Below, piece after piece: positions 1,633-58,716 of a stretch of DNA of 64,000 bases (positions are counted from its first letter, which is position 1; every line of letters begins with the position of its first letter). Position numbers and translations under genes: made by a program. The notes beneath the pieces were generated by a model that was not told the DNA's origin, did not search any database, and saw only the letters and a list, made by a program, of their open reading frames with translations. This DNA is from Ectocarpus siliculosus (Eukaryota > Sar > Phaeophyceae > Ectocarpales > Ectocarpaceae): assembly GCA_000310025.1 (NCBI GenBank), contig FN649734.1, positions 2,623,245 through 2,687,244 of the forward strand, read 5' to 3'.

Positions 1633-4600
1633 CTATAGACACGTGTACCCTCCGTCGACGCAGATCGTCTGCCCGAGGCACATGGTGCAAGCGTCGCTCG
1701 ACAGGAATACCACCATGTTCGCGATCTCCCAAGGCTCCACGAAGCGGCCGATCGGCGTCCTCTCCAGCATGGGCCGCGACTTGGCCGGGTCACCCCACGT
1801 CTTGATTCCCATGTCGGACCACGCCACGGTGGGTGCAATGTTGTTCACCTGATGCATTCGGCGGAGCCCCCCCCCGCCCCCCCGCCCGGGTCAAGAGCAA
1901 GCAAGCACATAAGTTGGGGGTCCCGGCGTACCGTAGGTTGCAACGCGTAAGATATCACACCCCCTGGACCGATTTTCAAAGCTCAACTACTCGGCGAGAA
2001 AAGCAGTGACGGTGTCGAAACTTGCAGCGTTTGAACCGTCTTGTCGAGAGCTTTCCAAAAACGTATCTCAATTGAAATCGGCATTCTTTTGGTCGTGGAG
2101 AAACGGAGCTTTGAAAATCGGTCCGGGGGGTGTGGTACCTCACGCAACCCACGGTACTGTTGTTGTTCTGCTCAACGCCCGAACCAGTAATGAGCGAAAG
2201 CGAGCTAAAATCCCACTCTCCTCGCATTCGATCCAAACGACTTCACGATTGTTTGTAAAATATTGTGTTGATTGACGCTTGCTGACCGCACGCGGCGCGG
2301 GCGCAGCAGAAGCGCTAGTGGCGGGGTCGTTTCCGCAGGTGCGTGCTGCAAGGGCGGCAGCAACGCCACAGGATAGAACAGCGTGCACGTTCGTGTACCT
2401 CTTGCTTGTTTTGTTTGCGGCGTGTACCCGTTTGGGGTAGGTGGACTGTGACCACGGAAGGGGTCCGTGTACAGTTGGACCGATATCCGGGTGAATGCAG
2501 GTACTGAGCACATGCCGGAACGGTTCATTGATGTAAATACATCATCATCATCAACAACATCAACAACAGCAGCAACAGCAATCGCAATAGCAACAAGACG
2601 ACGCCACCAGCGGGCAGGCGTGATTCTACGATCCCCCCCCCCCCCCCTCACGTGCCCACCATAACACAAAGGGGAGAATCCAGCGAAGAGCACCGAAGCA
2701 ACCGAACGACGTTCGCGGAACGGAGGGCCATGCGAGTGCGCTACGCAAAAGTGTACACGAACATGCTGGATAGATGGTTAACCAAAGCCGCGTTGCGGAC
2801 TTTCGCTGAACGCACAGGGCAGGACCATCATTGCGCACGCACCTGAATGTTATGCTGAGCCAGATCGCACACCAATCCGTGCAAGAGGCCGTCCATTGCA
2901 GCCTTGGACGCGCAGTCTACGGAAAATATAGCCGCGACAAAAACAACACGTTTCCGGAGGACAACACGAAAAAAAAATGGCTCATGGCAAAAACGATTAT
3001 GATGTTTGTGAAAATCGCTGTCGCCTGGAACCGAAGAAGGTCATAAACAAACCCATATCCCCTTTTTCGTGCCAATAGGCCACTTGCCGTACCCCAGACA
3101 TCTGCTACATCATCATCACATCACCAACAGTTTCACTCGAGTTTAGGGCAAATACGTTCGGAGATGACAATTCGCCAGTCGAAGTTCCTTGTCTTGTCAA
3201 ACCCACCCGTAGTGAGTGGCCAATCCTGATGCGTTGCCGCTACACACGTCAATCATGGCGATAATGCGCCTGTGGGGACGGCGGTCCAAACCGCAAACAC
3301 CGTGCGTCTCATTTCCCCTCTCGACCCCGGCATGAGTCTCGAAATCGCCCCATCCGTACGCATGCCTCTCCTACCAACCCCCGAAAAGGTAAAGGCTCAT
3401 CGCTACACACCGCACGGCGGGGGGGAGAGAGCAGTGCGAATTAAGTCGCCACTCACAGGACGCGTGCGCTTTCGTTGCGATGACGGCGCTTTGCGAAGTG
3501 ATGTTCACGATCTTCCCGGACTTGTTCTTGATCATGCCTTGGAGGCACACCTGCCCAAGGGTCGGTGTCGTCGGGGTTAGAGAGGCTCAGGGAGAGCGAG
3601 GTGGAAGGAGATAAACGAAAATCCAAACACAGTGATCCAAAATAAGCACCAAGCGTATGGCACCTTGTTCCCCCCCCCCCCCTCTTTTGTGCGCCATTCG
3701 TCTGGAACAAACCGTCGTGCGCATATGTTCGGGGCTACACTTTTCTGGAATCGTAAACGCTTGCACCAGCTGTGCAACTCGCACCCTTCTGTTAGCTTGT
3801 GTTTCGTGTTCGGCTGTGTGCAGCGACCGCAGGGTTGCGAGCTGGTATGCTATACGCTATGGCACCACAGTCTGGGGACAAAGCAAGGGGTGCGACGATG
3901 AAACAAGCAGGAACGAAATGATGATATTATCGCACGGGAGTAATCGCAGTGTGTGCGATAATTCCATCACGACCTCACTTCCGATGCGTGTCCCTTGCGT
4001 GTAGTGCCAAGGGCTCCGGGACGCTTCTTGGGCCGGAACGTTTTTACCGCAAACCTTAGGATACCGAGGTGTATATCGTGCGGGGTTCAGTGCACTATCT
4101 ACACGTTTTGCACACTGCCGGTGCCCCCCTCGCAATGAGTGAGGAAAAAACGACCATTCGATCGGCACGCGGTATATATATATACATGACGATATGTACA
4201 ACCAGCCCGCCGATACAAAACAGTCCGGTATTTCCCCACATACCGTATTTGTATCCACTCCGGAAAAACGGAAAATGAAATGAGAAAAAGAACCAAAGAC
4301 AGGACAGGGACCATTATTTTTCCCTCAACTCTCCCTTTTCTAAGGACAAAAAAGATATTGTGTTGTTCCTGCAAGACAATAAAGAAAGTAAAAGGACCAA
4401 CCAATAACTGCGGAAGAAGCCAAAACGCGCGTGCGGCGGAATCTTGCACAGTTGCCGCCTTTGCTGAAAGGCACCAAAAGGTTTAGGTTTCCTTTGTTGT
4501 GACGGGGTTGCTGCTGTACAGCATGACCCACGCGCAAGTGGCTGCCGTCTCCTCTCGCGGTGAGAAGCCCGGTCGTACCTGGGAGACCAGCAGCGGAGCG

Positions 4601-7035
4601 CGCGTGTTGATGGCGATGACCTCGTCGAACGTGTCCGACGAGATGTCCATGAAGTCTTCCAGCACGCAGATGCCGGCGTTGTTCACCAGGATGTCCAGGC
4701 TGCCGCCCGCCCAATCCACGGCCTTCAGGCAAAATCAGCGGTAGAGAGCAAAAGAGACCGAACACACTCTTAACCGGAACAACCAAGGCCGAACATAGGT
4801 CAAAAGCGGGAGCACACAAGCAAAGACAAAACCCCGCATCTCGGTAAAATGAAAACAAGAAAACACACAGGGCCCTTGTGGCAGAAAATGAAAACAGCAG
4901 TCGGGGCGTGTGTGTGGGGCAACCGGCAAAAAAAAAAGGCGAGTGACGACGTGTACCCCCGGCGCCGCCGATGGCGGCAAAGCAGTGCACAGAGATTGTC
5001 TGGGTGCAGCAGTTTCGGCCCAAAGAGAAGAAGTTCACCCGAGGCCTTGTACACTTATCTACCAGTGATAGACATGAAGGATGAGGCAAGACGGGCCCCG
5101 CGCGTCATGTTCCATCATACCCATATTATCATCCACGTAACCCCCCAGAGGTCCTGTACATCCACTCTGCCGAGCACCCGGCCTCCGGGACTCGAGTGTT
5201 AGCTGTGTTTACCAGGAGAGAGAGGCATAGGCGTAGCACAGGCTTTAGCAGACCTCGCTTCTCTTATGAAAGCAATTTTTGTTGGTCAAAGCAGAGTCCA
5301 AAAGCAATCAACGCCACACAAGGTGATGATGTTGGACATACAGAGAAGGCCTGTGACCTAGGCTGACGTGCATAAACGCGCTTTGCACAAGGTCTGTTCC
5401 AATCAAGAGCTTCCGCGGTTGCTTCCGACAGGTTTCGTAGTTGAAACCCTCACGACTTACAGGTGGAACCTTGCCATCCTCGTGCAAAAAGTGAACTGAT
5501 ATGTCCACCTACCCCCCCGGAGTCACACCTACCTTTTGCGCGCCGGCGATGGCTTCGGAAGGCACCCTCAAGTCCGCCTGTACCCAATATACATTACCGG
5601 TGCCCTCGGTATCATCGAACCCGTGCCTCTCCACCATATCCCGATACGCCCTGTCGTGGAAAAGGCCACACGGGGGCGGGAGCAGCGGGGGCATGAAAAA
5701 CTGTGGCACAACAATCAGCTCTATTTCTCGTTACAGACGCATCGATACTCCGCCAGAAACACCCGCACGCACGCCCCGCGCCAAGCAGCCGCACCTTGAG
5801 CGTGCACGGCAAAAAGTGTTGTGGGTCAAGGTGGGCCGGTGGGGCGGTTCTTGCAAGAACGACGCAATGACTAACCCAAGGGATAGCCTCAACCGGGTAA
5901 TCATACAGAAGTACGGGCCCGCAGTTGATATGCGGCATTTTGTTAGGGAGCGGAGGCTCACATTTTCACGAGAAATGAGAAAAATGGGTCGAGAAACACA
6001 CTTCATCGATCGGTGGATCCTTACACTGACGTCTCTACAAAGGCCGTGCTCGACAGTGGCGACGAAATAGGAATCGAGCCTAGACCCGATGTTGATTTCA
6101 TATCTCCGGGCCCGTACTGCTGTACGCCAGGCGTGATCATAGAGTAGCGGCCGAGCCGTTGCCGCAGCAACTCCGGCAGGCACAGCCAACTCACGAGCAC
6201 AGATGTGGAGGGGCATCTTGAGTTGAACATGATGGTGTGCATGGGAACCGTGTGGGTTAGGAAATGAATCGGGACTTGGATGGGTTCTACATATGCCACG
6301 CGATCGATCCGGGAGGGGCGTGGTGGTTTAGCTCTGTCACACACATTAGGAAACAAAAATACAAACACAGAAAGACTACCCATTCTACATTTACATGTAG
6401 AGCCGCACAGGGATGCAATGATCTACATGCAGCCGACGGAGGCTACAGCAGTATAGTAGGTGATACTCACTGACGGAAAAAAACATCGAAACTGTTGTAC
6501 GAAGCAAGACATACTTACGGTATTTTCTGATGTTAAACCAAAACACCGCCTTCCTATGGTTGCAGCACACGACCATAATGGTACCTGAACAGCGTCGTTG
6601 TTACTTGTCATCTCGCGGATCCATTCGTCAGCAATTGAACATGCACACTCACGCTTCGTTGCCAGCCATGACACAAACGTGCGCCCCCGCCTTCACTAGA
6701 GCGACCGTGATGGCCTCCCCTATGCCCCGGTTGCCTCCCGTGACGAGCGCCTGTTTTCCGCTGAGCAGATCGGGAACGAACGGCCGGACCGGTTCCTGCG
6801 GCCCACGCCCGATCATCACGTCCGATTCTTCTTGACCTGCTGCTGCTGCTGCTGCTTCTCCTGGCCCTGTCGAGGCGGCGGCATCCACCGACGATCCGCC
6901 CCGCCATCGCAAGTTGGCGCTGGAAGTTGTAGTAGAGACGGCTCCGCCCACGAAGGACTGAGCCTGTTGCAGAGGAAGTAGTAGTACCACGAGGGGGAGC
7001 AGCAGTGGCATGCGGATCATGTTGAACATATGCAT
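1633..7035 (-). CDS. DCXR-like short-chain dehydrogenase/reductase, putatively plastid-targeted
   Basis: Six exons splice in frame to 342 residues: 7035-6653, 5650-5533, 4722-4579, 3550-3457, 2916-2843 and 1848-1633, all with GT-AG introns. The classical SDR fold is complete: TGGNRGIG cofactor loop (residues 99-106), NNAG (181-184), the Ser block ITSQS (232-236) and catalytic YCASK (247-251, the Tyr codon split by an intron). The C-terminal third, with APTV, WGDP and the closing DGGYTCL, resembles L-xylulose/dicarbonyl reductase (DCXR), so NAD(P)H-dependent reduction of a sugar or dicarbonyl is likely; the substrate is inferred. The N-terminus is a hydrophobic signal peptide (about residues 8-24), then AQS-F and a Ser/Thr-rich, acid-poor stretch, as in bipartite plastid leaders of stramenopiles. 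The mature SDR domain begins near residue 90. It is head-to-head with the S1P lyase. The last intron contains a MITE. Confidence 0.9.
1951..2139. repeat. MITE family A, copy 1 (189 bp)
   Basis: The ends are inverted copies of each other over about 34 bp: GATATCACACCCCC then TGGACCGATTTTCAAAGCTC at the left, and the reverse complement of GGTACCACACCCCC with the same inner part at the right. Flanks read TAA on the left and TCA on the right, which may be a degenerate 3-bp target duplication. It carries no coding capacity and sits in the last intron of the reductase gene. Confidence 0.75.
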
Positions 7036-13488: not shown

Positions 13489-16400
13489 CGTCGTGGCTTG
13501 TATATGTCCACACATGACCCCGGGGTGAATCACCCCTGGGACGCGCAAAGCTCACGGTAGCGAAGAAATCTGGTCACGCCCCCCCCCCACGCAACAAGAC
13601 TCTTTTCCTTCACTTTGACGGAGTTCAACGCCGCTGTGTACGCCATTGCAGTGCGGCCTGCACGTGGACTGCTGCCTCGGCGGCTTCGTGTTGCCGTTCG
13701 CGAAGAGCCTGGGTTATTCGGTGGAGCCCTTCGACTTCGGGGTGGAGGGAGTCACCTCCATCTCCGCCGACACGCACAAGTACGGGTACGCGCCCAAGGG
13801 GACGTCGGTGGCGCTGTTCAGGAATAAGGAGGTAAGGCGCAAGCGGAGAGGCGGCGCTCAGGGGATTGCAGCTCGTTTGTGATTCTTGCCGGTTGTGTGG
13901 TGGTGTTAACTGGTCAGTCACGAGTTAATAAAGGTTTGTGGACGCTTCGCTTCGAAGATTGTTTCATTTGCTTGAACGGTTTGCTCCTTCTGTTCGGACG
14001 GCGGCGCCTCCTACGCATGTTTCCTCCGCACCAAGTTCGCTGTTCAGTAAGGAAACTTTTCGCTGTTTTCTCCGCACCCTTCCACTCCTCCCTCTGTAGC
14101 TGCGACACCAGGCGTACTTCTGCTTCCCGGAGTGGACGGGGGGGCTGTACGTCACTCCCACCATCGCCGGAAGCCGCCCTGGCGGGCTGTCCGCGGCCTG
14201 CTGGGCATCCATGGTGAGCGCCTGCCGGTGGCCTCACACGGCGAACATGCCTACAGCATATGTAGTTATCCCTGGTCATCCGTTTTTGTTGCCTCTTTGG
14301 CAGTGGGGGTGGACCCGTTAATGCAGATAGGCACCCAACAGGGGTACTGCTGTGCAGACATGGTTCCGTGGTTGTTTATCTCTACAAGTGTCCGCACCGG
14401 ACAAAGATCAAGGCCCGCGGGTCTTTTAGTGTGTGACGCTACGGCCCTGCGCAACGACGAGAGCGCACGTCCCCGGAATACTAGACAACCAACAACCACA
14501 CGCAGCCTCCTTTCGGTCCCTATTTCTCACGTCGAGGAAGTTGTGCGTTCCCCGTTTTTTATGTCCTAGCTTTTCCTCCATCGATAGACAACTCGTGGCG
14601 ACGTCGCCACCAGGCAGATGGTGCTCTTCTCCCGAAAACTTTTCCCCCATCATCTTTGTTATCCCCCGGCCCCTCCCCCGGCCCGCCCGCCAATGGTCGG
14701 CATGCGAAACATGAGTACGCCGCTGCCTGCCCCTCCTTCTTTTCCACGGCGCCCCCCCTGTTCCGAACGTCCTCGAACCCTTGCCTTTATACAGGTCGGC
14801 ATGGGCCGGGACGGTTACGAGAAGGCGGTCACGGGCATCATGGAAACGGTCAAGGCAAGTGCGCTGGTCTCGCTACTTTTAGACGCCAAGCACAGCCAGT
14901 CTGTCTCAATGCCGTATATGACATAAGATATCACAGCCCCCCTGGACCGCTCTCTTAAGCTCGATCGCTCCACACCAGAAATGATGCCAAAAATGGCTTT
15001 GAAACCATCTCACCGGGGACTTTTCCGATTACGCATGGTAGAATACGATATCCGCTTGGTCACAACGTAGCCGAGGTTTCTAACTCGGCCCACGGGGGTT
15101 GGTATCGTAGGTAGGTAAAACCTCCGTCCGAGCGCGAGGGTGCATGCTGCGTAGAACACGAGAGGAGCGTCATATATATTTTTTCTTCACTCGCTCCATC
15201 TGCGTGCGACTGATGTTGCTGAGCTCCCACCACCCGCCTCGAACCCCTGTAGTCGCGATGTGCCGCTTTCCGCCGAGTTGGCTGTGGCGGACCAGCGAGG
15301 TATCTTCTAGCTTGTGTTCTCCTGTCATGATGTCCACCGTGTGTGTGTTTTCGTCTTGCCGTCGCGCGCAGGAAGTTGCGCAAGGTGTTTCCGACATCTC
15401 TGGCCTTTCTTTGTTGGGGGAACCCAGGGCAATGGTGGTGTGCTTCCGCGGAGACGGCGGCGTCAACATTTACAAAGTTGTGAGTGCCTCGCGGGGACTT
15501 CGGTAGTCCCAACGATAGTCGCGTCGGAAACGTTTTTCTCACGCCAGGATCACGCGCAAGAGAGTCTTGGCTCCTGCTCTCCCCGTCTCACCTTCCTTCT
15601 TCTCTGACCACAACCTTGGAGCAGGGAAGAAACATCGATGTGAAACCATTTTTTCCGAACATCGCTGGATCTACACCCCCACGCTATCAGTAGACAATAA
15701 TTACGACCTCACTCGGAGGAGCCGGGGGAACGCAAGGACAATAGCGGCCGCATCTCACGTATAGAAGCAACGATGACCTTACGTCTCCTCAAAAACTCTC
15801 CCCACAACTTTTTCACAAACACATACTGTATCTATTTGTTTTTAATCAAAAACCTGCAGGGTGACCGCATGAGCCACCGGGGATGGAGCCTGAACGCGCT
15901 CCAGCATCCCCCGTGTCTCCACCTCTGCGTGACGATGTGCCACGTTGGCAAGGCGGGGGTGTTCCTGGCGGACCTGTTGGCGTCGACGTTGGAAGCTGCG
16001 GCGGCGGCCGGGGAGGTGAAAGTGTTCGGATATTTTTTTTGTGCTCGACGACCGGCGGTGTGACGCCCCCCCTCTGACCGGTTTGTTTTTACCGGCAAAC
16101 AGCAGGTGCAGAGTGTACGTCGCACCTCGGCGAAGACGTTTTCAATTAGGGTGTTCTTGCGATGGTCGGTCTTGCCCTAGTGCGTGGTTCGTACGACCTC
16201 GCACCCGTTGGCACCGACTACGTCGGGCAGCTTGTGATTTTTTTTGTTCCAGTGTTGTTGGAAATATCATTTTTTTCCGGTTTTCCACGAGTATCCAGAG
16301 ATGTGACATTTCTCGTGATGCCGTGCTGGTTACCACCGTCTCGTTGGGGCAGTTCAAAGTGTCGCCGCTTCTTTTGCAGTCCTTACCTCGAGTCTTGGCC

Positions 16401-19336: not shown

Positions 19337-22300
19337 ATGTCGCTGCTGCGGTGGCTCTTGGCGCCTGCGGGGTACTCCCTGCTACTCGGGATCGTCGGGT
19401 GTGAAGGTGAGAAGGAGTCGAGGTGCAGAGAGTCAGTCTCGGTGGATCATCAGAGTGTATCCTTCAAAGAAGCCGCGTTCGCACAATCTTGCTTCGCAGT
19501 ACAGGAACTACGGTACTTCTACTGTACGTCCGCGTCTGCGTCTAATTTTCGGAAGAATTTTTAGCTCAACAGGGACTATCCTCCGCTCGCAAAAAGTGCA
19601 GTGCTGTACTGTGTAGATCGCCGTTTCACTTGGCGGCGCAAGGTCGCATTGCGAATGCATCTGAAGTAAACGTATATAGTCTACAATATATCGTGAAAGG
19701 GTGTCTCGTTCTGTGATTGATTGTAGACTGTAGATTTTGCGAAAGTTATTCGACCTACACGGCGATCAACGAACGCTGCAACTTCAGGTAAGATCTTTCG
19801 GCGCGATCGACGCTTGTTTAGTCTTCTTCTTTAGCTTGCACGATGTGCATTTTTCTATTTGCCTCACGAACGGTAGGAGATATTGATTATTGGTATTTTT
19901 ATTGTAAGTCTACATAGATACAGAAGTTCAGAAACACTTCTTCTTCAGTGAAGACTGAGGTAGGTGCAGAGAGTCAGCCTCTCTTCTTGTGTTTCACCAC
20001 CACCGCCGGACGCGTACTCTCTACAAAAAGCCGGCTCGGCATCATCTTGCTCGAGAAAAAGCCTAGTGCTGGTACCGGGTAAGCGCCTACAACCACTGTA
20101 CTTCGGAAGAATTATCTCAACGGGTGTCCTCGGCGCGCTCGCAATGATACGGTGCTGAAAAATCGACGGTGCACTTTGCGGTGCAAGGTCACCCTGCCTA
20201 TACAATATGAAGAAATGCAATATATCCCGATCCCGAAAGGGTTAGGGTTAGACGTTAGATTAGACCATAAACTCTATGTACCATGTGTTAGTCTAATATC
20301 TGTTTTATGTAGAAAGTAAGATATTTGAGAGTGCGAACTTTTCGACACATTCATATTCGGAGATCAACGAACACTGCAACTCCAAATCATGTCGTCAGCG
20401 AGGTCGATGCATTCGATTCTTTGCCTCACGACCAGTAGGGAGAAATATACATTGGGGTGGGCTAAATGCAGAAATCAGGAAAACTTCGGTGAAGACCACA
20501 ACAACAAATACGTACGGAGTGTAGGCAAGAGCGTTGCTTGGCCGCGAGGGATAAAGCGTGAATTTAATTACATATTAACGTAGCTGCTGCGCGCCTTTCG
20601 GTTCCGAGATGAGGGGTCAGCAGTAGCATCAGGGACGAGTGTCAGAGACAACGAAGGGCTACAGAGCCACATTATTCGTATCCGCCTCCCCGTCGCCCCA
20701 CACCTTCTTTGTCAGCGATCAGTGTCGAACTGTCGGAAGTTCTACCCATCGAAGAAGCGTACGCTACCGGAGAGCACGCCGGCTTGTCGGCGTCCTCCAT
20801 CGAGGATTTCTATGGGGGCGAAGACCCTATCGACGGGGACTGCGCCGTCGGGAGATGTGTGGGACTGTTGACTCGTGATGGCTCTCTTGAGTTGGACTCC
20901 CGTTACGGCTGCACACCACCCTACGCTGGCTTCTGCGGCGTAGACTTCGCCCTTTCCGCCGACTTTGTGGACAAGAGCATTCTGGGGGGAGTAACAATTG
21001 GTGAGTTCCATGCACTTGACGACACCTGGACTGTTGTATCCATGACGAGAACGTATGGAAAAGGTGAATGCAGTGGACGGCGTGTGGAGGTTAAAGAGGG
21101 AAGCGAATCGAGCTGGAGGTGGTGGATAGGAAAAACTATTGTTGTGGCGACGCATTGGGAGTTACACAGGCGAAAGAGCAAGAACTGAGGGCTGTCGGAG
21201 TCGCTTCACGAGCAAGTAATCACTGACAACGCGGGCGGCGACAGCGAGCATGTGGTCGTGTTATGAACTTTAAGCTGAATCCGACCATATCTGCGGTTCG
21301 TCGGCCGATCCAATCAGCGGGCACGATCAACACTTTCCGAGAAAACTAGGGAGTGCGTCGTATCACCACCCCTCGTCGTCTTTTGAATTTTTTCGCTTCG
21401 AACTCGGTAGTGAGGTCAACGACGTAGTCACCGCCCAGCAACCACTTCCGGGTTGCGCTTGGACACCGTTGTCGTCACCCAGGGGACCCACCCAGGGAGC
21501 GCTTTCGTAGTTCTTCCCAAAATCGTCGACCTAAATACGCTTGAAACCCGACCCCTATTCCGTTCGGCGACTGACGGCCGTCTAGCGCTTCACCCTGACA
21601 GCATGAGCAAGCTCCGGGTGCTCGTGGACGGTGCCACTATTCTGGAGGAGTGGGACGCCGTCCCCGGGTCATCGGAGCTGCAAGAAATCCCCGGCCTTGA
21701 AGGTGTCGAAGGCGGACGCCTCAGCATCGAAGGCGTCGAGGGCGCCGGGGATTATCTCGCCATCCTTGAGGTGAGATGAAAGCCCATGCACGCTTGTTCC
21801 ATAGGTTCAGAAACTCCGATTGTTTTCAAACAACTTTGGCTGCTGAAGAACCGATGCATTCATCGAAATATCCCGTCACCTCGACAATACGAAATGGAAA
21901 CATGGTATCTTTTTTGCCACCCGGACTAAAAACACACTTGTTGAACAGGTGGGGATCTACATCGTTGTTGACGAGGTGGAGCCTCTCGGCGTGTCAGCCA
22001 GCACCCGGACGTCGATCTCCGCCACCGCAACCACCAACAATGCCTCGGCCATCCTAACCTTGGTAAGCCGCAACACTGTCATTCCCACCAGGACCGTAAC
22101 GCAACCGGGCGAGCAAGGCGAAAGAGCGGATAGGGATCCACTCGTCGCGGGGCCCGGCGTGAAACACGTTCAGAGCGAAATTTCGCCACTGATCCCAGAA
22201 CAGATAAACGGACCCTGGCAAGTGTATTTCGCGGTAACTCGCGTGTCTTTCCAGTCCCGGAACCCCCCACACCAACTCCTTACGTGGTTCCGATTTCACC

Positions 22301-25300
22301 GAATACAGGACGGCGACGCAACGGACGGGTCGTCGTGGGCTTGCCTGTCGTCGGAAGGGGCGTGCGAAATCACGTACGATCTGCAGGCCGTGGAATCCCT
22401 CCAGCAGCTCCGTATTGGTGAGGCGTAATGATCCATATACCTACAGTTTCGTGACCCCCCGCGAGCACACCAGTGTTGCAGGTTTTGCTCAACGGTCGTC
22501 TTGTGTACGATCGTTCTTATTTGAGAAACGCGTGATCGCAGCTTGTCACCATGCCCGTCTTGGTGGTGAGAGAGAGTGGATACCGTCAAGGCGACGCATT
22601 TTCATGTGACTCCAGTACGAAAAAAACTCCTTCTGTGTGCATTATCGCGGTATAGATCGACAGCGGAGGTGTGTGTGTGTGTCCTCTCGCAGTTTGCACC
22701 CGGGTGATGCATGCATGCGATAAATATTGTCGAGAACGCCCTGCAAGAAGTCCGAAAGCAAGGCGGCTTAGAACGATGTACTTCCACGTATATCAGCCCA
22801 AGATGAAAGCAAGTTTTGCGGCACACCTACCCCGACCCGAGTCATTGCCTGGGTGTGGGGTGAATATGTCTTGGCCGGGGAGCGCCCCGGTGACATTGGG
22901 TCACCGTGGCACGCGAACTCCGGCTCCCTCGTCACGCTGCCATACTTTTCAATGTATCCTCGGTCCTATCCCTTTGCCAGCCCATCACACCCCTTCCCCC
23001 CTTTGCCTTCGTTGCTGGTTCTTCCCCCTCCCCCACCGCCGCCGCCGCGGCGGTCCCAGCATTCTCTACCAACACCGACGCGGGCGCCAAGCTCAACGTC
23101 TTGGCCGCCGGCGAGTCCGGGGTGTTCTCCTACGTGAGGTCGGGCCTCGAGGCCGGAGGCCGGCCCCTCGGGAGCGACGGCTTGCAGACCTTCGGCGGCG
23201 TGCTTGCCCTGGCTCGCTACGTCAGAATTGAGGCCGTGCCCTCCGGTGAAGGCGGAGCAATCGTGATCAACGAGGTACGAGGTGTGAGCGCTCGACTGAC
23301 GGCCTAGGACGTTTGTTCGCACGAGATTGTTTTTTTTTAGGCTAGCGGGTACTGTATGAAAGAGCCGCGTGGGTTTTGTCAACGCCATCGCGCGCATACT
23401 TTATAGCACTAGACTCTGCACGCAACGAGACTCGCTGGAACATGGTGGAAACCCCAGACGATCCGTTTTTTCAACTCCGAACGGTCACGTCGCCCTCGGG
23501 GCTTTTCCGGACTCGCTTCACGGTCCATGCTCGAATCGTTAACGCCTCACCCCAGGTGGAACTCCGCGTCGGAGACGCTCCCGTGCGCCCTGTGTCCGAA
23601 AAGGCCTGGCTCCAGCCCACCGGCATGCTGCCGCTGGCGGCAGACACGGGCAGCTCCGGCCACCCAAACTTCGACAACAGGGAGCCCAGCGCCGGCGGTT
23701 GTGATTCTCCAGCCCACTTCGAGGGATGCCACGTGTATTACATCAAGGTAACTTGAGCTGCTGTTGCTGTTGTTGTTGTCATTGTTATTGTTACTATCGT
23801 CGTTGTCCTCCCCGTCATACTGTCGAGTTCCTTGGGACCCGATTGGCCTTTCGATTCTCAAGGCTAATTCTCGTGCGTCGGACGCTTGACGATCAGGACG
23901 GCGACATGTCGGACGATTCTCGATGGACCTGCGGCCCTCTAGCGGCGGGGAACTTGGTCTCCAACAACGAGGATTGCCACCTCATGCTCAGCCTCAACTA
24001 CTTCCGTTACGTCCGCCAAATTCAGTTTGGTGAGTCCGCTCCCACCACCACCCACGATGGCAGGCTGTCTACCACCATTAGAGCAGACTTTGATTTGCCG
24101 CTCGAACAAGCATTCAAGCAACACGCACACTTTGTCGGACCGGGAGGTGCATGCGCAGGTTACCGCGGAGGTGATGCTGAGATCCCGAGTGCGTGAGATT
24201 TGTAATTTTGCTACAGCCCTGAAAGAACACCACTCGAGGCGTCAGGAATAGGTGCGTCACGGCTTCCAGAATCGCTGTTCACAGTCGCTTGAGGTTGCCT
24301 GGAATAGTTAAAGTCCTACGCAGGAACATGGCGCAGTGCAACATCGTTTGCGAACAGCAGCATCAAAAGTCCTCACCCACACAGTCGCGCAAGCCTGACA
24401 ACCACGTTGTGTCTGTCGTGCGGACTGTCCATGCTGTTTCGTTCCCCCCAGACGTTTCTTATCTCCCTTCCTGCTCCCCTTCCTTATTTCTGTCCTTTTA
24501 TTCGGAATCCTGCAGCATTCCACATGGGCGACGAGCAATACAACGAGTTCAGCATTGAGGCCAACACTGTCGACAAGGGTTGGGTGGTAAGGAAAATCAC
24601 CTGGCCGACGAAGTTTCCTGATTGGTCAAAACACCTGCGGCGGAATTCCGCCCGGGACAAGCAAAGAACAGTCTTCTCACATCACTTCAAGCTCCCTTTG
24701 GGCGTACTGGCACCGCACACTGCTGTTTGAGGGGAATTTGTTGTTTTCCGTTCCCCAACCAGAAGGCATCCCAAACACCTGTGCGCCTCAAAGGACGTGT
24801 AAGGCATGATCGACATTTACTATATCTTGAATCATGTTTCTACCCGCACGAGGCAGTGCTCATTCGCCTTCCGAAGAACTAAGTCGGCACTCTGAAGTCC
24901 TCTCATGTGTGGGATGAAATCGCGATGCGTCGGAATTCCGTTGGTTGATGGAATGCAATGGGACAAGGGTGCCCTATTGACGGTGCGGGAAGCCGGCTGG
25001 AAACTGGCGTGAGACAGGCTGGACTTTTTCCCTTTGTCCCCTATTTTCGTTCACAAACTCGGCCAGAGTCGAACCTAGTTAGGTTTGACCAGGCCTCGAC
25101 AAAGCGGTTGCGAGATGGTTAGAATTGTTTGTCACCTCTAGGGCCATCTTCACCGCATCGTGCCAGGGTGGTGACCCTCGGCGGTTCTATGTCGTTTTCA
25201 ACCATCCGATAGCTATCGAGTGCGACGCTGGAGTCATGCGTGCGACGCTGGAATCATGCGTCGCACACGGTGAAGACCAATGCGTGCAAAGGATCCAAAA

Positions 25301-28300
25301 CTGATACCGATCATACGGTCTCTTCACCTGAATACTTTTAAAGATATCCTGACATAAAGAACACAAGCTGTTCCACACAACCGTATTTCCCCGAAAAGTT
25401 CCTGCCGCACGAAGCACGCTTCGCCCACCAACCATTTTCCCTGCTGCTGCTCTTCGTGTCACTGCTCTGCTGTTGATGCTCGCCCCAGACGGTCGTTTCC
25501 TCTGCGATCAGCTCGGGAGACTCCACGGACTATCAGACGTTCGACATTGAAGTGCACACCAACGAGATCAGGCTGGTGCCCGTGTTTCAACGAGTCGATC
25601 AGTGGATCGGCATCAAGGAGGTACGTTCTTGCGCATGCATCCAAGTCAAGTCTCGAGAGATGAGCGCTCCAAGAGCGTGGGTTGCCTTTTCCACGTACGA
25701 ACTCAAAGGCGTTGTTGGAAACTGGCTCAGGACAAGACGATGCTGATCCGGCACTCAAGTGTCGGGCTTGGATGTGAAGATCGTGCGGAATGTATCCAAC
25801 ATCACAGTTGGTCACCATCATTGTCGTTGATTCCACCCATGGAACGCCAGAGTGACCCGTGCGGATATCGACTTTGTGCTTTCCGATGATGACGACTTGC
25901 AGATGGTGATCCTCGAGACAAAGGAGATGGGCTTCATTAACGGGACGCTTCCGGTGTTCGACTACAGCTATTGGTTCGTGAGTGCAGCCCGCGACAAAAT
26001 TTGCGAGGAATGTTATGATTCCTTTCGCAGCCTATGCTTGCCAGTACACGTAAAATGTGACAAAAGGGGGCCGCCTCACAGTGGGGAGGCGGAGCAAGCC
26101 AAGTTGTCTAGGCCTTGGTAGGACTCGCGGAGCCATGGGGCCAAGAGCAACGCCGATCGTGGAGGTAGCAACCATCAACCATTTTTTCAGTACAGCCTGT
26201 GCCGTGCATTTTCATCGTTTCGTTCGCCCGCGTTGTTGTCAGCCACGTGGGGACGGCGGCGACGACGATAGCAGCGGTGACTCGGACGAAGACGTACCTA
26301 CCCGGTTCGAGTTCCACATGCCGAGGGTGAGACTTTCCTGGTTACGCTGCGAAGGCATCTTTTACGCATGGCCAGATATGCGCCCACGAAGAGCTTTCGT
26401 GCTCTGGGTATCGTTCCAATTTGTAAAACGGTCGAACCTATCAGACGAAATGTCGTTGTGATAAGGTCAGCCATCAAATCTCAAGATACGGTCGGTGAGG
26501 CACGACCTTTTCCGTTCACCGCGTCGTGCGGTTGAAAATTCCTGCGTGGGGCGGTTCGATCAGTTGCCGCGTGTCCATCTCAAGAGCGATGCCGGCTGTT
26601 GGGGCGCCCTATTTCGTGCGCACGTTCCCACAAGGTCGTAGCAAGGAGCAGACAATCGCCTCTGTACCTGTTTGGGGGAGCGTCTTGACACTCATGAATG
26701 AACTGGTGAAACCCGGCACATTTCGCTTGAGCCCGTATTGGTCGTTCAAGCGTGCATTAGAAGCCGCATCGCAGGAAATCGACCGTGTGTTGATGGGACC
26801 GACGTTGTGTACTATGAGCCAGACGTTCTTCAAGGTTCCATTATATTTCTTGCTGAGTCACCCACGAGCACCTTGGCTGTAGATCCTGTTCCCAGCGTGT
26901 GCCGTTCAGGTCACGACCGACGCACGAGTTGGGGCAAAGATTGCTTTTGAGACAGCCGTTCCTTGCGCCCCGCCTGTGCGAAACGTTTCCATTTGGTGCT
27001 GCAGCCGGAAGACTACTTCCAGTTCAGAGTACCCCCCTCGACGGTGACAGCGGTGAAGCTAAGGTTCCCTTCCGACAGGCAGTTCGTCTTCAGAGTGAGC
27101 TACGACGAGATCGAAACCGACGAGGAAATCGTGGAGGTGAGAAGGCAGTAAACACTGAGGGCGGTTCGCTCTCTCTGTGCTGAAAAGGCATACGATGGTG
27201 GAGAGCGAGACGCATGCACTCGCTTTCGTATCGCCGGACGACTCCTACGATGACCTAGGATCTGGATTTGTTGCGAAAGTGCAAAGTTATCTACTCTATG
27301 CGGAGCGGAAAAGTTGCGGCGTCTTAGTACACGCTACGCACTGCTATTCCTTCGTGGTGACCTTTCATCACAGAATTCGTTGACTGCCTCACCTTCGGGA
27401 TCAGAACAGAGGATAGCAACATTTCCGGCCACATGGGGAAGGACTGAGTGCTACAACAGCACCAGCAAAGGGCAACGCATGCCACCGTGCACTTGCATAC
27501 GTTCCTGTCCACGCCGCATGCTCAATCAAAGCTTACCATACCCGAAAATATATATATTACGTTGTCTACTGCCTCCGCAAAGAAAGTTGTTCTGTAAAAC
27601 ACGGGGGGGGGGTGCTGTTCTGAGAGTCCAGATATGTGTTGCCAGTGATCGTTTGTGCATAGGTTATTCTGTAGGTGTACAATATCTCGGCGACATGAAA
27701 ACAAACCTACCGTTAGTCTTTGCTCAATCTTCCCCCGTCCCTCCTACCTGCTGATGGGCGCCATCACTCGTTTTGGCCTCTCTATCCAGGAGTTCACCAG
27801 CGCCGGAGGACCCGACACCATGGAAACGTTCACGTTGTCAGCTCCAGCCGATGTCGAACGTTTTGTGTACATCACGGCCGTGAGCGGACCGACGTTCGAG
27901 AGCCAACCAGATTACCCGACCTTGAGGGTGATCGACTTCCAGATTGTGGGCGAGATCAAAAAGGACCCCGGCCACTTCGAGGTAGTTTGTGAGAGGGCGG
28001 TGCGATTCTTGGTATCGGCCAGTGTTCGAAGGCAGTTGGTGGATGCTCGCTGTTAATCCCGGCAGTGCTGCAAGAAAATTCGGGCTCTGGCGGTTGCGGT
28101 ATGTGTTGTATCCACTGCACGTTCCTCGGCATCCGCTCCCTATTGTTCGCTATTCTTGACGGATGTTCATGTTGCTGATTGTTGTGCGCCGGTGTCGGGA
28201 TTCCTCTTTCGTGCGAAAACCTTTCCGGGTAATCCGACGCAGGTCGTCACGACGACGATGACAGTGTGGAGGGTAGTGCCGGACATCATCGGCGACGGGG

Positions 28301-31300
28301 TTTCCGACCAGGAGGAGATCATGACGACCATCTGCGAGACCAAGGGGGGCGCCTTCGACGGCACGGACTGCGTCGGCGAGCTGGACGACTCTTCGGTCCA
28401 CGTGAGTGATAGATGTCAGTCCGAGAGAGGTTTCTCCTTTAGGTATTCGGGGGATGGGCACTCGGTGCCTGATCCATGGAAGATCATCGTGAGTATCGAC
28501 AGGGCCTCGGACGGCGACGAAATTTTTGATTCTTTGGTGTGAAATCTCTCAAACATTGACTCTCCACAAACATCAGCCTGAGGTCTGTACCTTTGCTGGC
28601 CATCACGCGACGTATGCACCCGCCGCTGGCCAACCTCTTTCCCTACCTTTCGCTGAACATCTTTGGGTGCTCGGCAAGTGAATCAGCGTTTCGGGGATGG
28701 TGCTTCAATGTTGCTCGCACATTTGTTGACACCATCACGTTTCGACATCAATCCCCCTCCCCCCCCCCGTACTTCCCCCCCCGGTGTTTGGGTTGAGTTT
28801 CGTCGCTTGGCAACGACGTTGTAAAACAAGCCGATCACTTCGTGAGCTCTGCAACCAGGTTATTATAACCGTGTTTTTCTTTGCCTCTGATTTGTTTTTT
28901 GCGGTAACCGTAATGGTGGTCGAGTAGATCATGTTGTGCGGGGCAGAGAACCCTCACTCCGCGCAAAGGGGATATCGCACCACGTTGTGTTTAATTGGTA
29001 AAGCACCCTCGAGGCAGTTACACAATGCATACAACTGTCTCTGGAAGTGAAAGCACAAGAAAACAAACTAAGTCATACGCAGCTGTCATCCGTACGCAAG
29101 GAAGTACGCACAAGATGCCGAACACCCTTAGCAGGATGCACCGCACCCTTCATGCGACTCGCGGAATACCTCACAATGCTTTGCGCTTGGTGATGTGACA
29201 GCCTGGTCCGGTGAGAACCCGGCGTGCTGCGTCCCGGCTTTGTAGGGATGCGAGGTCAATGGTCTAAGGACTACGGCATGCACGACTATGAGTACATGAG
29301 TACACCCCCCCCCCCCCTACTTTCCTCTCCAACTGCTTTCCTTGCAAACCACTCGCCATTCGGGGCCTAGTTGTGCACGCTCACAGCGCTCTCCTGCCCC
29401 TTTTGCGGTGGTGAAACGCCCCCTCGCCAAGAAACGCGAGGGCTACCCGGACGAAACCATTCGCCAAATATTTGCAGCGCTTCACCCCGGAATCCCTTTG
29501 AAATATTGCGATCTTAGCGTTTCAGACTTTCGTCAGTACACGGAAGTTCTGTGACAAAAATGTGGCGAAATTGTAGTTTACAGCGGTTTCAGGTGCTTCG
29601 CCCAAACAGTTCCGGGTGATGTTGCAATAGCTCCTGGTGCGCTGCGCGCTTTTCCCCTGTTAGTTGAGCTGCAAACGAAACGGTTTAACACTGTTGCCCC
29701 GCCGCTACATACCCCGACCAAACCGACCCACCTTCGGCATCAGATCAGCATGAAGAACGGGCACTACTTTTTGGACGGCCCTGTTTTCTTGAAGAGCGGG
29801 GTGACTTTGTCGGGCGGGGACTACTCGTACAATGAGCCTAGCAGAACATATCTCGTGCTACACAACCACACCAGGCTGGAAGACGCCGTGATCGTGATCG
29901 ATGGAGGTACGGTACGGCCCACCCGAGCCGATGTCATGACAGAGTGGCATCGGGTGCCATCTCTATGCCTTCGTCACTGGAAGGGTTCGCCTAGACGCCT
30001 TACGGGTTACCGTGCTAAATAGTGATCCAACAGAGGAAGCGTCCGGAGAATAGCGCCGTGGCCGTCGAATGTGCTTGTTGTCGCGCTAACGCCATAAATC
30101 AGCCAAAACTCCAAATCCTCATGCACTGTCCGTCACGCACGTCACGAAGGCAGTGTGTGGTCAAAGCATGTCCGGTGTGCTCCCTCCCCGTGTGCTGCAG
30201 GGACTTGCCTCACACCCTGATTCTGAGGAATTTGCGGGTCCACGTGGGAGCATTAACTGAACTTGTGTTCCGAAAGCGTTTCATGACACAATCAATTCAC
30301 CCGCAAGCTGCCTTGCCCACCGATGAACCCCTTGCGTGTGCACGATGTGTCGCGGCGATTTTTTCTTGGTTACAAGTGACCGGCGGCGAGGTGGATTCCG
30401 TCTACATCGAGCACCAGACACCCATGACAGGAGATATAACTCCTGGAACATTAGGAAACCTTTGCTTGGAGGTCCGGGGCTCACAGGTGCGGCGTAGTAG
30501 TAGCAGCTCTCCACGACCACTCCTATGTGGCAGCAATCTGGGGAACAAGCGACCTTTGGCATTTTTCTTTGATCCTATGTTTACCTGCGGCAGTTTGCCA
30601 CAGCAGAGAACGCCAAGTACGACACGTACCCTCCTATCGCTTGTTGAGCTCCCTGGTGGTGCTATGCATAGCACAGAATCTTGGCGGAGACTATTCACTT
30701 TGATCAAGGACAGTGATGTGCGGTACGCATCCGTCGCTCGTTACGAGGTGGTTGGCTGGCTTGCCCTCACTTATTTATCCCTTACATGCTAAAGGTCGCG
30801 TCGGACACTGGGCAAGATCCAAAAGCACAAAGCGCTTGTGATTTTCGACTATGGCTACTTTTTGCTGTTTATACTCCTTCTGTAGTCGACGCATGCCAAT
30901 CAATGCACAAGCGTTCCGATTCAGGCTCCCAAGTTGCTTGTTGCACCGAGCTGCGAAGCGAGACAACCACGTGGAAATCTATCGACTACTTTGGTTCGAT
31001 GGAGGAGGCCAGTTTGACTGCCATTTTCTCCGGTACTTCGCATGATAGATAGCGCCCGCCGGGGGGACAATTGGAGTCCCTTGCCCCGTACCTCCATAAA
31101 CGGGGAAGTCGGGGAGGTTGAACGCCCAAACTCCGAAAAGGTTTCACCGAGATCTTCACCCAGTCGCCCTTCAAGTTGTCGGGATATTGGTCTAGGCACG
31201 GTACCATGTGTTGTACGAGCTCGGTCTGTCACATAGAAGTACCTGTTTCTGTTCGCACCGCAGAATGTCTTCAAACGACGACGGCGGTTGGATGACAAGT

Positions 31301-34126
31301 AGCGAAGAGGAGCCCATGGACCCTAGGCAACGGTGTCTACATTCTTTCAGGGTTTCTGGCTTTTCCTGAACGAACGATGTATCGTAACGGTTTTCCTGCC
31401 GCCGTTGTGTTGTTAATGACTGAATTCGATCTGTTCCTGTGCTCTTGCCTAATCGCGTACAGGACCTCAAGCTTGCTGAAATCGACTGCCACCAGGCCCG
31501 CACGGGCGCCGCGCGATTCGTCGACTCCAAGAACATCTCGTAAGACGTTGAAATGTACCCCTCTGCCGTTCTTTAAATGATCAATCAAAATCTAAGAAGC
31601 TGTCTTCTTTGGATGCGGCATCGTCGGGAAACCCTTCCTCCTCCAGAGCATGCATGCCGTGGGACCACATACTGCATATTGGTTAACGCCGTAATCCGTA
31701 GTCTTTCACTTACAAAATGCGCTACACGAACGTTTGGTAGGAGTCTCGTACGCCTCCTACTATAGGCCTCAGCCCAGAAAACAGCCAGAACCGCGGACCG
31801 AGGAGTGAAAACTGTAGGTGTTATGACTCCTCCCCGTTTCCCTCCAGGGTGTCCGTCATCAGGGACGGCGAGTACGAGACGGGGAACTTCATGGAGGTCG
31901 ATGGTGTCGACGACTTCCATTTCGAGGGGATTCCCGTGAGCGACTGTTTGTTGTTGCTTTTTGAATCTTCATTTCACTCCAGTTTGAATGTGAACACTTT
32001 CTGCCCTCCGCAACACCAACGAATGATCTACACCCACCTGCTCTGAAGCTTCCCTCCCTCAGAATGACCGGAATGCATTTCTCCGAAACATGCTAAGGGC
32101 GTCGCAAGGGAAGCATCTGAGACATCCTCCGCCTGTTCGTGTCGTGCTTCTGGTCCGGTTCGCCCCAGTTAAATCTCACAGTGACGACGTCAGCAAATCT
32201 TCTTCGAGGATAACGTCGTTTCCGGGTAGTCCATTTCGATGCCATGCCATATCGTGTTATCGCGACAGCATCGAAAGGCCGAATTGCAACTGTCGACCGT
32301 ATGTTCCAACGGGCTTCGACCGTACGTTCCCATGGGCGTCACTGACGGGAGAATATATTACGTTTCACACGCCCTCCTCGTTCCCACCCGGAACACTCAT
32401 CCCAGAATATAGCAAGGTGGCGAAGGTTTCGCCCCCGATGGCAGCAAACGTCATCCCATAAACACCAACATAGTGAAGACGTAGTCGACCAATTCGTATA
32501 TCAAAATCGTCTCTCGCAGGAAGTCGCGGGGCTGCGAATCGAGGACAGCAACAACGTGGTTCTCCAGGGGGGAGCTTCAAACGTCTACGAAGTCCCAACA
32601 CCGGTGTTCTTGCCCCCTACCGGTGGAGATCAAGCGGCAAGCGTAGTGATCACCGGTGCATCGTCCGGGATAGTTTTCCAAGACTGCTCGATCTACGCTG
32701 GCGGTGACACCGGTGTGTGCTTCAGTACCCGTTGAAGATAACCTGAATTGACGTCTGTTTTGGGTGGGGGCAAGGGAAAAACACGGGCATGGCTTTGCTC
32801 TTTGTTTTCAAAATGGTAGTTGGTGCCGTGGATTGGGAAGAAACGACGGGATCCTTTGCTGAAAGTTGCCCGAAACTCGTATTGCATGGCTGGTAGAGCC
32901 GCGTATTTGGACGAAGCCGTTCGAGCCGAGCGGCTTTGTCTTTGACGAATCCTCCCAGCGTGCGAAGTTATGGTGATGATGGCAGTGCTTGTATCAAGCA
33001 TCCCTGACCCCGGCCTGTTTCATGCCGAACTTTGTTGTACTCCACCGCGTTGCCCCGATCAGCGCCTGTCCTGATGGAATCGACGGAACCCCTCACCCTG
33101 GACAACATCCTGGGGTACGAAGCAGCCGAGAGCGGCGACTGCATCATAGACGTCCCACCGGTGAGAAAGGCTCACCCCTGAAACAGAGCAGTCGATGGGT
33201 GTGCACCGAGCAGGGCTAGCTCGCCGCCAACGCTGACGGTGACGGAGCGACCCGTGGGTTATTGTAGCACGAAAACGACTACTGGAAGTATATTGTTGCG
33301 CCTCTACCCTCCTCGCGTTCTTGGTATGTATGGGTTGGTGGATATCAGGGGAACCCCGCCCACGTTCCCAAGCAACATTCGTAGAAAAGGTCGCGAATCA
33401 TGCATAAAACTGGCGGCCACTGCTAGCGACCGACTTGCGTCGGGCTGGTGCAAGGCGATACAGGAACCTACCCAGAATCCAACTAACGAAGAGCACGTTC
33501 AAATCAGCTTTCTGCGTTCCATCCGTCAACCGCGCTCGGCAATGTTTGCTTATTCCTTTCGTTTTGGAAACGCTTCCCCACGTGACGAAGTGTTGTGTAC
33601 TCTGGAATCATGTGCTGGACCCCAAGGTGACAACAAACTGCCTGGGGTAGCCCTCACGTTTGTCGAAAGGCACAGCGTGATACATATTCACCAGGGTTGA
33701 GTGTTTTGCATGTTGCATGGCGCGAAATCACCTTACCTTTAGGGAAGTTTCAATTGTCACGACGACCACAAAACATGGCCTGTCGTGCCCCAGTTTTGTT
33801 TGGGATCTGTTATCACGTGCCATGATGACGTCTGATCGTATTCGGTGCTGGGTTGTGAACGGGCTATGAATGTCAGGAGGAGCTCGAACATGAACGAAGA
33901 ACCCCTGAGAGAGAGAGAGAGAGCGAGCGAGAGAGAAAGAATACCAGTTCATGGCGTAGTTCGGGCAGCCTTGATCCCATCGGTCACTGTGCTTGCCGAA
34001 ACAATGCCCCCTTCGCTTTTCACCCCAACCGGTGTTTGTTGTCAGGAAAGCGGGGACGATCTTATCGTGCAACTGAATTCCTACGCGATCCTGTCCAAGG
34101 ACGGCGACTGCTGGGTTTGGGACTAG
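19337..34126 (+). CDS. Large secreted F5/8C-module and right-handed beta-helix protein
   Basis: Clear exons are 19337-19406, 20716-21000, 21439-21770, 21949-22062, 22309-22417, 23060-23274, 23346-23747, 23897-24029, 24516-24586, 25489-25620, ~25848-25977, 26243-26326, 27005-27136, 27790-27981, 28243-28401, 29744-29906, ~30375-30486, 31848-31935, 32520-32712, 33063-33160 and 34046-34126; one or more short exons near 25.7, 26.7 and 30.2 kb are unresolved. Exon 1 encodes a signal peptide (MSLLRWLLAPAG...). The middle carries repeated discoidin-like units (DGD...SRW.C, then a beta-strand ending in an intron at a split Ala codon, then a strand such as RYVRI). The C-terminal half, from GDGVSDQEE on, has short rungs such as GVTLSGGDYSYN and SGIVFQDCSIYAGG typical of pectate-lyase-like beta-helices. 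It probably binds and modifies an extracellular or cell-wall polysaccharide; a lyase, epimerase or purely structural role cannot be told apart. Confidence 0.75.
19405..20505. repeat. Tandem direct duplication, two ~550 bp units
   Basis: Unit 1 (about 19405-19955) and unit 2 (about 19960-20505) share, in the same order, AGGTGCAGAGAGTCAG, TTTCGGAAGAATT-like, CGCTCGCAA, GGCGCAAGGTC / GGTGCAAGGTC, GATCAACGAAC.CTGCAACT and GCCTCACGA...GTAGG. The units are diverged with indels. The first begins at the donor of exon 1 of the beta-helix gene, so the duplication fills its first intron. Unit 2 contains a short GGGTTAGGGTTA run. Confidence 0.75.
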
Positions 34127-56889: not shown

Positions 56890-58716
56890 CCGGAAAGCTT
56901 GACGTCCACGTTACCCACATTGATGCTGCTGCGGCCGCCGCCAACAAGGCGGAGGATGACCGCGAGATGATGCCCGAGGAGGACCGGGTGCCGGTGGGGG
57001 CCGGGTCGACGGCGCAAGGTAGCGAGGACAAGCCAAACGTCGTGAGGTTTCTAGACGTTCCGGGGTCGGAGCAGACCCGGGAGGAGAAGATGACCATCGT
57101 CTTCACTTGCACGGTGAGGCGTGGATAAAGAGCTACATAAGGGAGGTACGACAGCAGTGGTGTTGTGTTCCTTTCTCGCCAATGAGAACACGCCACTGCT
57201 GCCGAACCTACCTGTAGGTGACACCGCAGATACCACACGCCCTGAACCGCTTGATTTCTCCACAACCGAGGGGGTGCAGAAAGAGCCCGATGCGTCTAGA
57301 AGCCCTCGGCGACATGCTTGCAAAACCACATTTGGAGGTGTAGACACGAGCTTGGTTGTGGAGCAATCGACCTTTGGAAATCGGTCCAGGGGTGTGATAT
57401 CTAATGTCGCGATGCGTAGCGTACGTTCAGTGAAAAAGCAGTCGAACGAGATCTTCGGACCCATGCCATTGCGGCGACGGCAACACCTTGCCGCTGTCGA
57501 ACGACTACATAAGTTGAAAAAAAAAGGGATGCTTGGCTCACACTAGCTGTCGAACTACTGTAAGTACGTCGTCGTCTCTCCTTTGGCACTGTGGGCCGCC
57601 AAGGCGCTGCTCTGGTGCTTCATGTGTAAGGCATGTCCAAGTGGCACAAAAAAATACTCTTTACCCTTTCAAGATCACTTGGAAGATTATTCGCAGGGGG
57701 CATGTGTTGAAATCTTGATATTTTACGATGAGGGCTGAATGACACCGGAACAAGTACAGCATTGGTCTTGCTGGACGTCCTTAGACAGACTAAGGGGGAA
57801 CCGGCGACACCGACTCTCCACCTTGAACGTCTGCGAGAATAACCAGCTTTTGAAGGACTGCATCTCATTTTTTCGAAACCTAAACTTTTACGATGTGCTC
57901 CCAAATCAGGTGTGCGAGACGAGGACAGCCAAGACCTTCGCCAAGCTGTCCTACGAGAAGGGGGTCGTCTTGGCCCGATGCCCCGGCTGCCACAACATAC
58001 ACCTCATCGCCGACCGATTAGGGTGAGTCGAGCTTTGCTACAAAGACTGCTGTGGTTATGATGCTTCATCCCGAGAGAATCTCTTTGCCTGTACGTGTAT
58101 TTTCTCGTAAAACGTTTCAGGAAGAGATAGACATGCACCCATCAAGACACAGCCGCCACCCGCTTCTGGTGATTGTGTGGGGAGGCGCTCGAAATGTATC
58201 CGTACACACAGGTTGGACCGCGATGATCTAGTTATCGATACATTTTCACGCCGCATGCTAGCGTGCCCCCCACGTCGCCCCGGTCCCTCTCTGCACCCAC
58301 AGAGGTCGCCAGGCGCGTTGTGAAGCGGTTGTTGTTGGCATGGGGCCAGATTTCTTTGCAGTGCTGAGAGCCTGGCGTGCAGCTTCTGTTGCGGCTGCCG
58401 CGTTGATGAAGGTGTGCGTCTGCCCTCTTTCGCCTCTGTCACCAAGTGATGATTTGTGTGTGTGTAAACCCCGTCATTTTTTTTTTTTGTAAGGTGGTTC
58501 GAGGAGGCAGGAGACGGCGCCGATGGGTGGGACATCGAGAAGATCACCAACCGCATCGGAGAGAGCGACTGCCATGTCGTGAACGAGGACAATGTCATGG
58601 AGCTCAACCTCGTCGATATCGCCGGCAAGACAACCCGGCGGAAAGACACGCCTCCAAAGGGAGGGGACGACAGAGATTCATCCCCGGAGTCGCCTAGCTC
58701 GGAGGGACAGAAGTGA
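56460..58716 (+). CDS. Zim17/DNL-type zinc-finger mitochondrial Hsp70 escort protein
   Basis: Three exons (56460-57113, 57910-58022, 58494-58716) join to 329 residues. The DNL zinc finger is complete: C217-x2-C220 and C242-P-G-C245, with YEKGVVL between, then NIHLIADRLGWFE. Family members keep mitochondrial Hsp70 soluble and help protein import and iron-sulfur assembly in the matrix. The N-terminal ~190 residues are rich in Ser, Arg and Thr and poor in acids early on, which suits a mitochondrial presequence, but they are far longer than usual and include a poly-Ser tract from an AGC repeat. The first zinc knuckle is split by intron 1 between its two Cys codons. A plastid location is also possible, since plastids have their own DNL proteins. 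The C-terminal tail (KTTRRKDTPPKGG onward) is charged and disordered. Confidence 0.93.
56840..56889 (+). repeat. (AGC)n microsatellite in coding exon
   Basis: About 50 bp of perfect AGC repeats encode a run of ~17 Ser in the N-terminal region of the Zim17-type protein. Length variation here would be in frame and change only the spacer. Confidence 0.97.
57229..57401. repeat. MITE family A, copy 4 (173 bp)
   Basis: The left end GATACCACACGCCCTGAACCG and the right end CGGTCCAGGGGTGTGATATC are inverted copies, and TAA follows on the right as in other copies. It lies in intron 1 of the Zim17-type gene. Confidence 0.7.

Follow-up and report, generated by a model that had tools for sequence, protein, structure and literature searches.

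A brown algal protein with three CBM32-like modules and a right-handed beta-helix belongs to a diverged subfamily lacking the uronate-contacting arginine of its relatives

Introduction

The 64-kb window of Ectocarpus siliculosus DNA analysed here, part of contig C9, raises the question of whether a long, many-exon gene on its forward strand encodes an undescribed polysaccharide-acting enzyme, and if so, whether alginate is the target. Alginate is both made and degraded by brown algae, for which the only reported lyase family is PL41, with carbohydrate-binding modules (CBMs) mentioned in general terms only, as far as the accessible part of the source goes (PMC11468063). We reconstructed the gene, searched the genome (189 Mb in 492 contigs) for its paralogues, and compared modules and helix with solved structures and with each other. 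A very probable Ectocarpus origin is also indicated by PF00195, which matches the genome at two places: at one of them, 90/90 residues of a stretch agree with PDB chain 4b0n ('polyketide synthase III'), a protein of Ectocarpus siliculosus.

Results

A complete 22-exon gene encodes a secreted-looking modular protein

The gene is real. Its spliced model at 19337-34126 (+) comprises 22 exons and 21 GT-AG introns, and the coding sequence of 2949 nt, running from the ATG at 19337 to the stop at 34124-34126 with no internal stop, encodes 982 aa, so that the gene of about 15 kb and more than 20 exons proposed by the sequence-only reading is borne out at full length. The protein opens with a signal-peptide-like segment, which is followed by three F5/8 type C (CBM32-like) modules, a fourth domain and a C-terminal beta-helix. 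The exons, all on the forward strand, are as follows, each with its support.

Exon 1, 19337-19406 (+): start codon and signal-peptide-like segment; gene model.
Exon 2, 20716-21000 (+): first half of F5/8C (CBM32-like) module 1; both ends shifted by the retrained finder.
Exon 3, 21586-21770 (+): second half of module 1; start from the twin (first model 21439, retrained 21602).
Exon 4, 21949-22062 (+): last part of module 1 and first part of module 2; end from the twin (retrained end 22095).
Exon 5, 22309-22417 (+): module 2 (DGDATDGSSWAC); twin match, retrained finder.
Exon 6, 23060-23274 (+): module 2; twin match, retrained finder; best Pfam F5_F8_type_C stretch, aa 204-321.
Exon 7, 23556-23747 (+): last part of module 2 and first part of module 3; twin match, gene finder.
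Exon 8, 23897-24029 (+): module 3 (DGDMSDDSRWTC); twin match, retrained finder.
Exon 9, 24516-24586 (+): module 3; twin match, retrained finder.
Exon 10, 25489-25620 (+): module 3, with its weak CBM32 matches; twin match, retrained finder.
Exon 11, 25903-25977 (+): linker; gene finder, first and retrained.
Exon 12, 26243-26326 (+): acidic linker and first part of the fourth domain; twin match, retrained finder.
Exon 13, 27005-27136 (+): fourth domain, no recognised relative; twin match, retrained finder.
Exon 14, 27790-27981 (+): fourth domain; twin match, retrained finder.
Exon 15, 28243-28401 (+): beta-helix N-cap, GDGVSDQEE at 28291-28317; genome search, twin match, retrained finder.
Exon 16, 29744-29911 (+): first helix rungs; genome search, twin match (retrained start 29795).
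Exon 17, 30391-30486 (+): helix; genome search, first gene finder; absent from the retrained model.
Exon 18, 31463-31539 (+): helix; gene finder, first and retrained.
Exon 19, 31848-31935 (+): helix; twin match, retrained finder.
Exon 20, 32520-32712 (+): helix; genome search, twin match, retrained finder.
Exon 21, 33063-33160 (+): helix; genome search, twin match, retrained finder.
Exon 22, 34046-34126 (+): C-terminal end and stop; genome search, retrained finder.

Exons were initially picked by eye and then called with a small gene finder based on codon log-odds, splice matrices and phase, the first version of which is circular because it was trained on this same gene. Retrained on a paralogue at C11:662 kb, the finder scored the gene's strand at 193.6, the opposite strand at 27.1 and 12 dinucleotide shuffles at -1.3 to 8.4; this control is only partly independent, since the exons of that paralogue were called with parameters from the window gene. 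The retrained calls agree exactly with 17 of the 22 final exons (18 starts and 19 ends), place other bounds on exons 2 (both ends), 3 (start), 4 (end) and 16 (start), and miss exon 17. Support independent of the finder comes from protein matches to a twin gene on contig C11, which run exon by exon and are colinear. Three candidates were rejected: an extra exon at 28483-28536 called by the first finder, which has no counterpart in the paralogue models and would break the join from cap to rung; the exon 3 start at 21439, dropped for 21586 on the support of the twin only; and a splice join from 29906, where the phase fails and 29911 fits.

The N-terminus (MSLLRWLLAPAGYSLLLGIVGC) is signal-peptide-like as judged by eye, and the most hydrophobic 19-mer of the protein starts at aa 15 (mean 1.68), which supports the earlier description of a secreted-looking protein. 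No 19-mer starting beyond aa 60 exceeds a hydrophobicity of 1.6, that is, a later hydrophobic or C-terminal anchor is absent.

Within the introns, the stretch at 29159-29304 (intron 15) matches C11:4256497-4256642 in translation at 77-82%, within the span of the twin but on the strand opposite to that gene, and is probably an interspersed repeat; in intron 1, an apparent imperfect duplication of about 200 bases is visible by eye at 19430-20200. Elsewhere in the window we observe short-chain dehydrogenase-type exons at 1636-1890 and 4486-4734 (-) (adh_short_C2, E 1e-13; adh_short, 5.3e-8), a pyridoxal-dependent decarboxylase-type exon at 13619-13879 (+) (Pyridoxal_deC, E 3.2e-7), which we take to be sphingosine-phosphate-lyase-like, and an exon of a DNL zinc finger gene at 57739-58023 (+) (zf-DNL, E 1.8e-17).

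The gene belongs to a family with two subfamilies

Searching the genome with the helix revealed at least eight helix genes: the window gene and its twin (C11, about 4.25-4.27 Mb), four further genes on C11 (581-667 kb), and one each on C21 and C72. The module-helix layout recurs in the better gene-finder models of the paralogues; those on C72 and C21 contain fused or missing exons and are reliable only in places, and the N-terminus of the twin is modelled in part only. The window helix is 50% identical to that of the twin and 27-29% to those of four other aligned members. We refer to the six genes besides the window gene and twin as the other subfamily; three of its members share 62-69% (three pairs). 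The four genes at C11:581-667 kb are packed into about 85 kb in both orientations, and the copies near 589 and 626 kb, which carry the R-D-H-E set described below, hardly differ along most of the helix, a recent duplication.

Modules of this type also occur in other gene contexts, with 62 matches of the CBM32-like module listed genome-wide. Gene-finder models place it with leucine-rich-repeat-like exons (C472:675-683 kb) and in a protein rich in Pro/Thr and Cys whose C-terminus is hydrophobic (C19:1432-1439 kb). Helix peptide patterns found no relatives in IMG/VR and GTDB contigs (two short patterns each, thus weak negatives), and among open-licence papers, leaving supplements aside, we found none on the family by title or abstract start.

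The modules resemble the CBM32 of an alginate lyase and have lost its uronate contact in one branch

The earlier description of several carbohydrate-binding-like modules holds. Pfam F5_F8_type_C matches the final model at 28.4 bits, just over the cut-off of 28.2 (E 1.9e-6, aa 204-321), and a preliminary model at 29.6 bits, while two modules taken singly and in part stay below the cut-off (15.8 and 16.5 bits). A seven-module profile, built from one module of the window gene and six of the other subfamily, identified in the PDB the CBM32 of the alginate lyase AlyQ as the closest relative of known structure for the modules of the family (E 8.4e-11 over 111 positions, two distinct sequences); eight sequences fell below E 0.1, and the six beyond AlyQ are weak (a 'CBM32 domain', 0.006; alginate lyases, 0.016 and 0.02; a hyaluronoglucosaminidase, 0.017; a lectin and protein RSC3288, 0.06). 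Searched alone, module 3 of the window gene hit five PDB chains within an E limit of 1. Each is a CBM32 or alginate lyase chain that the profile had also hit, and the matches are weak (E 0.006-0.32); module 2 alone gave AlyQ first at E 0.18. The family names rest on weak profiles, because the paralogue at C11:662 kb, whose modules resemble AlyQ, fails to match F5_F8_type_C even with an E limit of 1. A PDB search with a paralogue's version of the fourth domain returned nothing.

The CBM32 of AlyQ (PDB 7d29, 7d2a, 5xnr), a member of the F5/8 type C superfamily, binds alginate that has been cleaved but not the intact polymer; its R248 holds an acetate, possibly mimicking the carboxyl of a uronate, a Trp equivalent to its W303 is important in a relative, and D209 and T214 hold its structural calcium, according to the part of the AlyQ report available to us (PMC5651945). 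By our own count, the spacing of these key residues fits the printed chain. We aligned 17 algal modules with AlyQ, a chosen subset of the genome's modules: six from the window gene and twin, and 11 others, one of which comes from the C19 gene, with no helix in the stretch read. The calcium-site Asp, shared with AlyQ, is present in 17/17 modules, including all three of the window gene. At the R248 position, by contrast, all 11 other modules carry Arg and none of the six from the window gene and twin does; at one further position, Glu (11/11) is replaced by Gln (6/6); and the W303 position holds Trp in 8 of the 11 against one of the six. The three modules of the window gene read S, A and Q at the first of these positions and Y, A and W at the last; thus, of the residues that AlyQ has in common with the other subfamily, Arg and usually Trp, the window gene keeps Arg in 0/3 and Trp in 1/3. 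Since both the Arg and the Glu are present in AlyQ, loss in the branch of the window gene and twin is the simpler reading. The ancestral modules would resemble the CBM32 found in bacterial alginate lyases, and of the proposal that alginate is the target, the family-level part is supported indirectly by this similarity, whereas for the window gene it is undercut by the missing uronate-contacting Arg.

The helix is assigned by homology, and GDGVSDQEE lies in its cap

The C-terminus had been read as a right-handed beta-helix, and homology to paralogues supports this placement: PF13229 Beta_helix matches three of six aligned family members (best E 2.6e-9), including the paralogue at C11:662 kb (33.2 bits, cut-off 25.9), to which the window helix is 29% identical with exon-by-exon matches. 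The window copy itself, unlike these members, has no Pfam helix match at E up to 1; Pfam and NCBIfam searches with its helix were unproductive, as was a PDB search with the helix alone, and a helix profile found no relative in the PDB. Across the genome, PF13229 matches 16 places, to which neither the window gene nor any of the helix genes given above belongs, and a PF12708 search was unproductive. Brown algal mannuronan C5-epimerases (ManC5-E) are also beta-helices; a search of the Ectocarpus genome with an AlgE query was unproductive, ran with no positive control and is not informative on algal ManC5-E.

The cap and first rung, including GDGVSDQEE, align with AlgE chains over 65 columns (E 9.7e-5, probability only 58%). 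The first 46 residues of the AlgE query also match chains that bear adhesin names, 3zpp ('cell wall surface anchor family protein') and 4mr0 ('Plasmin and fibronectin-binding protein A'), and the cap is therefore no sign of catalysis. GDGVSDQEE was also rejected as a catalytic or calcium-repeat motif, the paralogues reading like GTGDQKAI or GSGDQNAI there. The position that the sequence-only reading gave this motif, at the helix start, agrees with the AlgE-type N-cap alignment, but the catalytic hint drawn from it falls away: GDGVSDQEE appears to be a helix cap. The family helix can thus be aligned with AlgE-type helices in N-cap and first rung, but the AlgE catalytic motif is absent from it: the mid-helix YGFDPH is not present, and none of the seven helices checked contains Asp-Pro-His.

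Most conserved charged helix positions differ in the window gene

Comparison of three to four members of the other subfamily yielded 33 conserved K/R/H/Y/D/E helix positions, of which the window gene keeps 11 and the twin seven. Both keep six: D14, K34 and D39 in the cap, and D64, D106 and D188, which by our own reading may be turn positions. In a manual rung register that slips at rungs 7-8, outward residues on four successive rungs of the other subfamily form a set of R (6/6), D (5/5), H (4/4) and E (6/6), a candidate active site; independent cases are fewer than these counts, because the copies near 581 and 622 kb are near duplicates. The alignment gives V-D-R-T at these positions in the window gene and T-T-L-T in the twin, and the rung table has G at the last of them, where the manual register slips. 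As the helices were compared with no outgroup, the set may have been lost in the window branch or gained in the other subfamily.

The window helix nevertheless has charged residues of its own on the face we call PB1, with R138 and E183 common to the twin, and 33 K/R/H/Y/D/E helix residues are identical between the two genes; a different active site is possible on these grounds. Other outward residues differ between window gene and twin, with R versus T at rung 4, and R and E versus L and D at rung 6.

Both halves of the gene are under purifying selection, the helix being less constrained (dN 0.449, dS 0.950 against the twin) than exons 4-10 (dN 0.257, dS 1.026). In the other subfamily, dN/dS is 0.21-0.35 for the helix (four pairs), 0.11-0.28 for module 1 (three pairs), 0.37 for module 4 with the fourth domain and 0.33 for module 4 alone (one pair each), so that its helix is not less constrained than module 4 and mostly more relaxed than module 1; with dS near 1, most of these ratios are rough.

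Discussion

The reading to which we give about half of our belief is that the window gene encodes a secreted extracellular-matrix paralogue that would bind or scaffold in the wall through a changed ligand, with no alginate-type catalysis. The window gene and twin constitute a diverged subfamily whose fold is retained under purifying selection, to judge from the calcium-site Asp, the helix cap and four cysteines, and from which the uronate-contacting Arg has gone in all three modules together with most of the charged helix positions conserved in the other subfamily. For the window copy, these losses leave the proposed polysaccharide-acting enzyme unsupported; the other subfamily, which has AlyQ-type modules and a conserved polar set, is predicted to be the better enzyme candidate.

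The enzymatic reading can be retained in a changed form, in which the window copy has shifted its substrate or chemistry, uses new catalytic residues in the helix and binds, e.g., a sulfated fucan through its modules. Purifying selection on both halves, the charged outward residues, with R138 and E183 common to the twin, and the replacement of Arg and Glu in all three modules, Glu by Gln in 6/6, which fits a shift of specificity, all point this way, but the outward residues at rungs 4 and 6 are unlike in window gene and twin and constraint on the helix is weaker than on exons 4-10, and we consider this form possible and on the doubtful side. A lyase or mannuronan C5-epimerase acting on alginate, towards which the sequence-only reading leaned, is very improbable: the N-cap does align with AlgE and the module relatives are located in alginate lyases, but YGFDPH and Asp-Pro-His are missing, the helix profile drew no enzyme from the PDB, and the window modules lack the uronate Arg.

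A role in adhesion or recognition, for cell-wall attachment or for self or partner recognition, would make binding surfaces of both modules and helix. It would suit the presence of the same module in the leucine-rich-repeat-like C472 gene and in the C19 gene with its hydrophobic C-terminus; the window protein, however, has no C-terminal hydrophobic anchor, and we regard such a role as distinctly improbable. A broader proposal concerns the family as a whole, namely that it is an undescribed class of brown algal polysaccharide-acting beta-helix enzymes, with the R-D-H-E ladder of the six-gene subfamily as active site, the alginate-type CBM32s for targeting, and the window gene and twin neofunctionalized in ligand and chemistry; we put this forward tentatively, as rather unlikely.

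In AlyQ, a CBM32 is joined to a PL7 domain, whereas the window gene joins three modules to a beta-helix in a eukaryote. The ManC5-epimerases and PL41 alginate lyases of brown algae are likewise polysaccharide-acting families, a likeness drawn from the accessible part of the published account rather than from algal sequences (PMC11468063).

This multigene family, in which CBM32s of the alginate-lyase type are coupled to a beta-helix that is unclassified, provides a candidate list for wall-remodelling or wall-binding proteins. The contrast between its two subfamilies, in which the module Arg and the R-D-H-E set are kept in one and lost in the other, makes the question testable with few constructs, and it suggests that the window gene may be the wrong member to test first.
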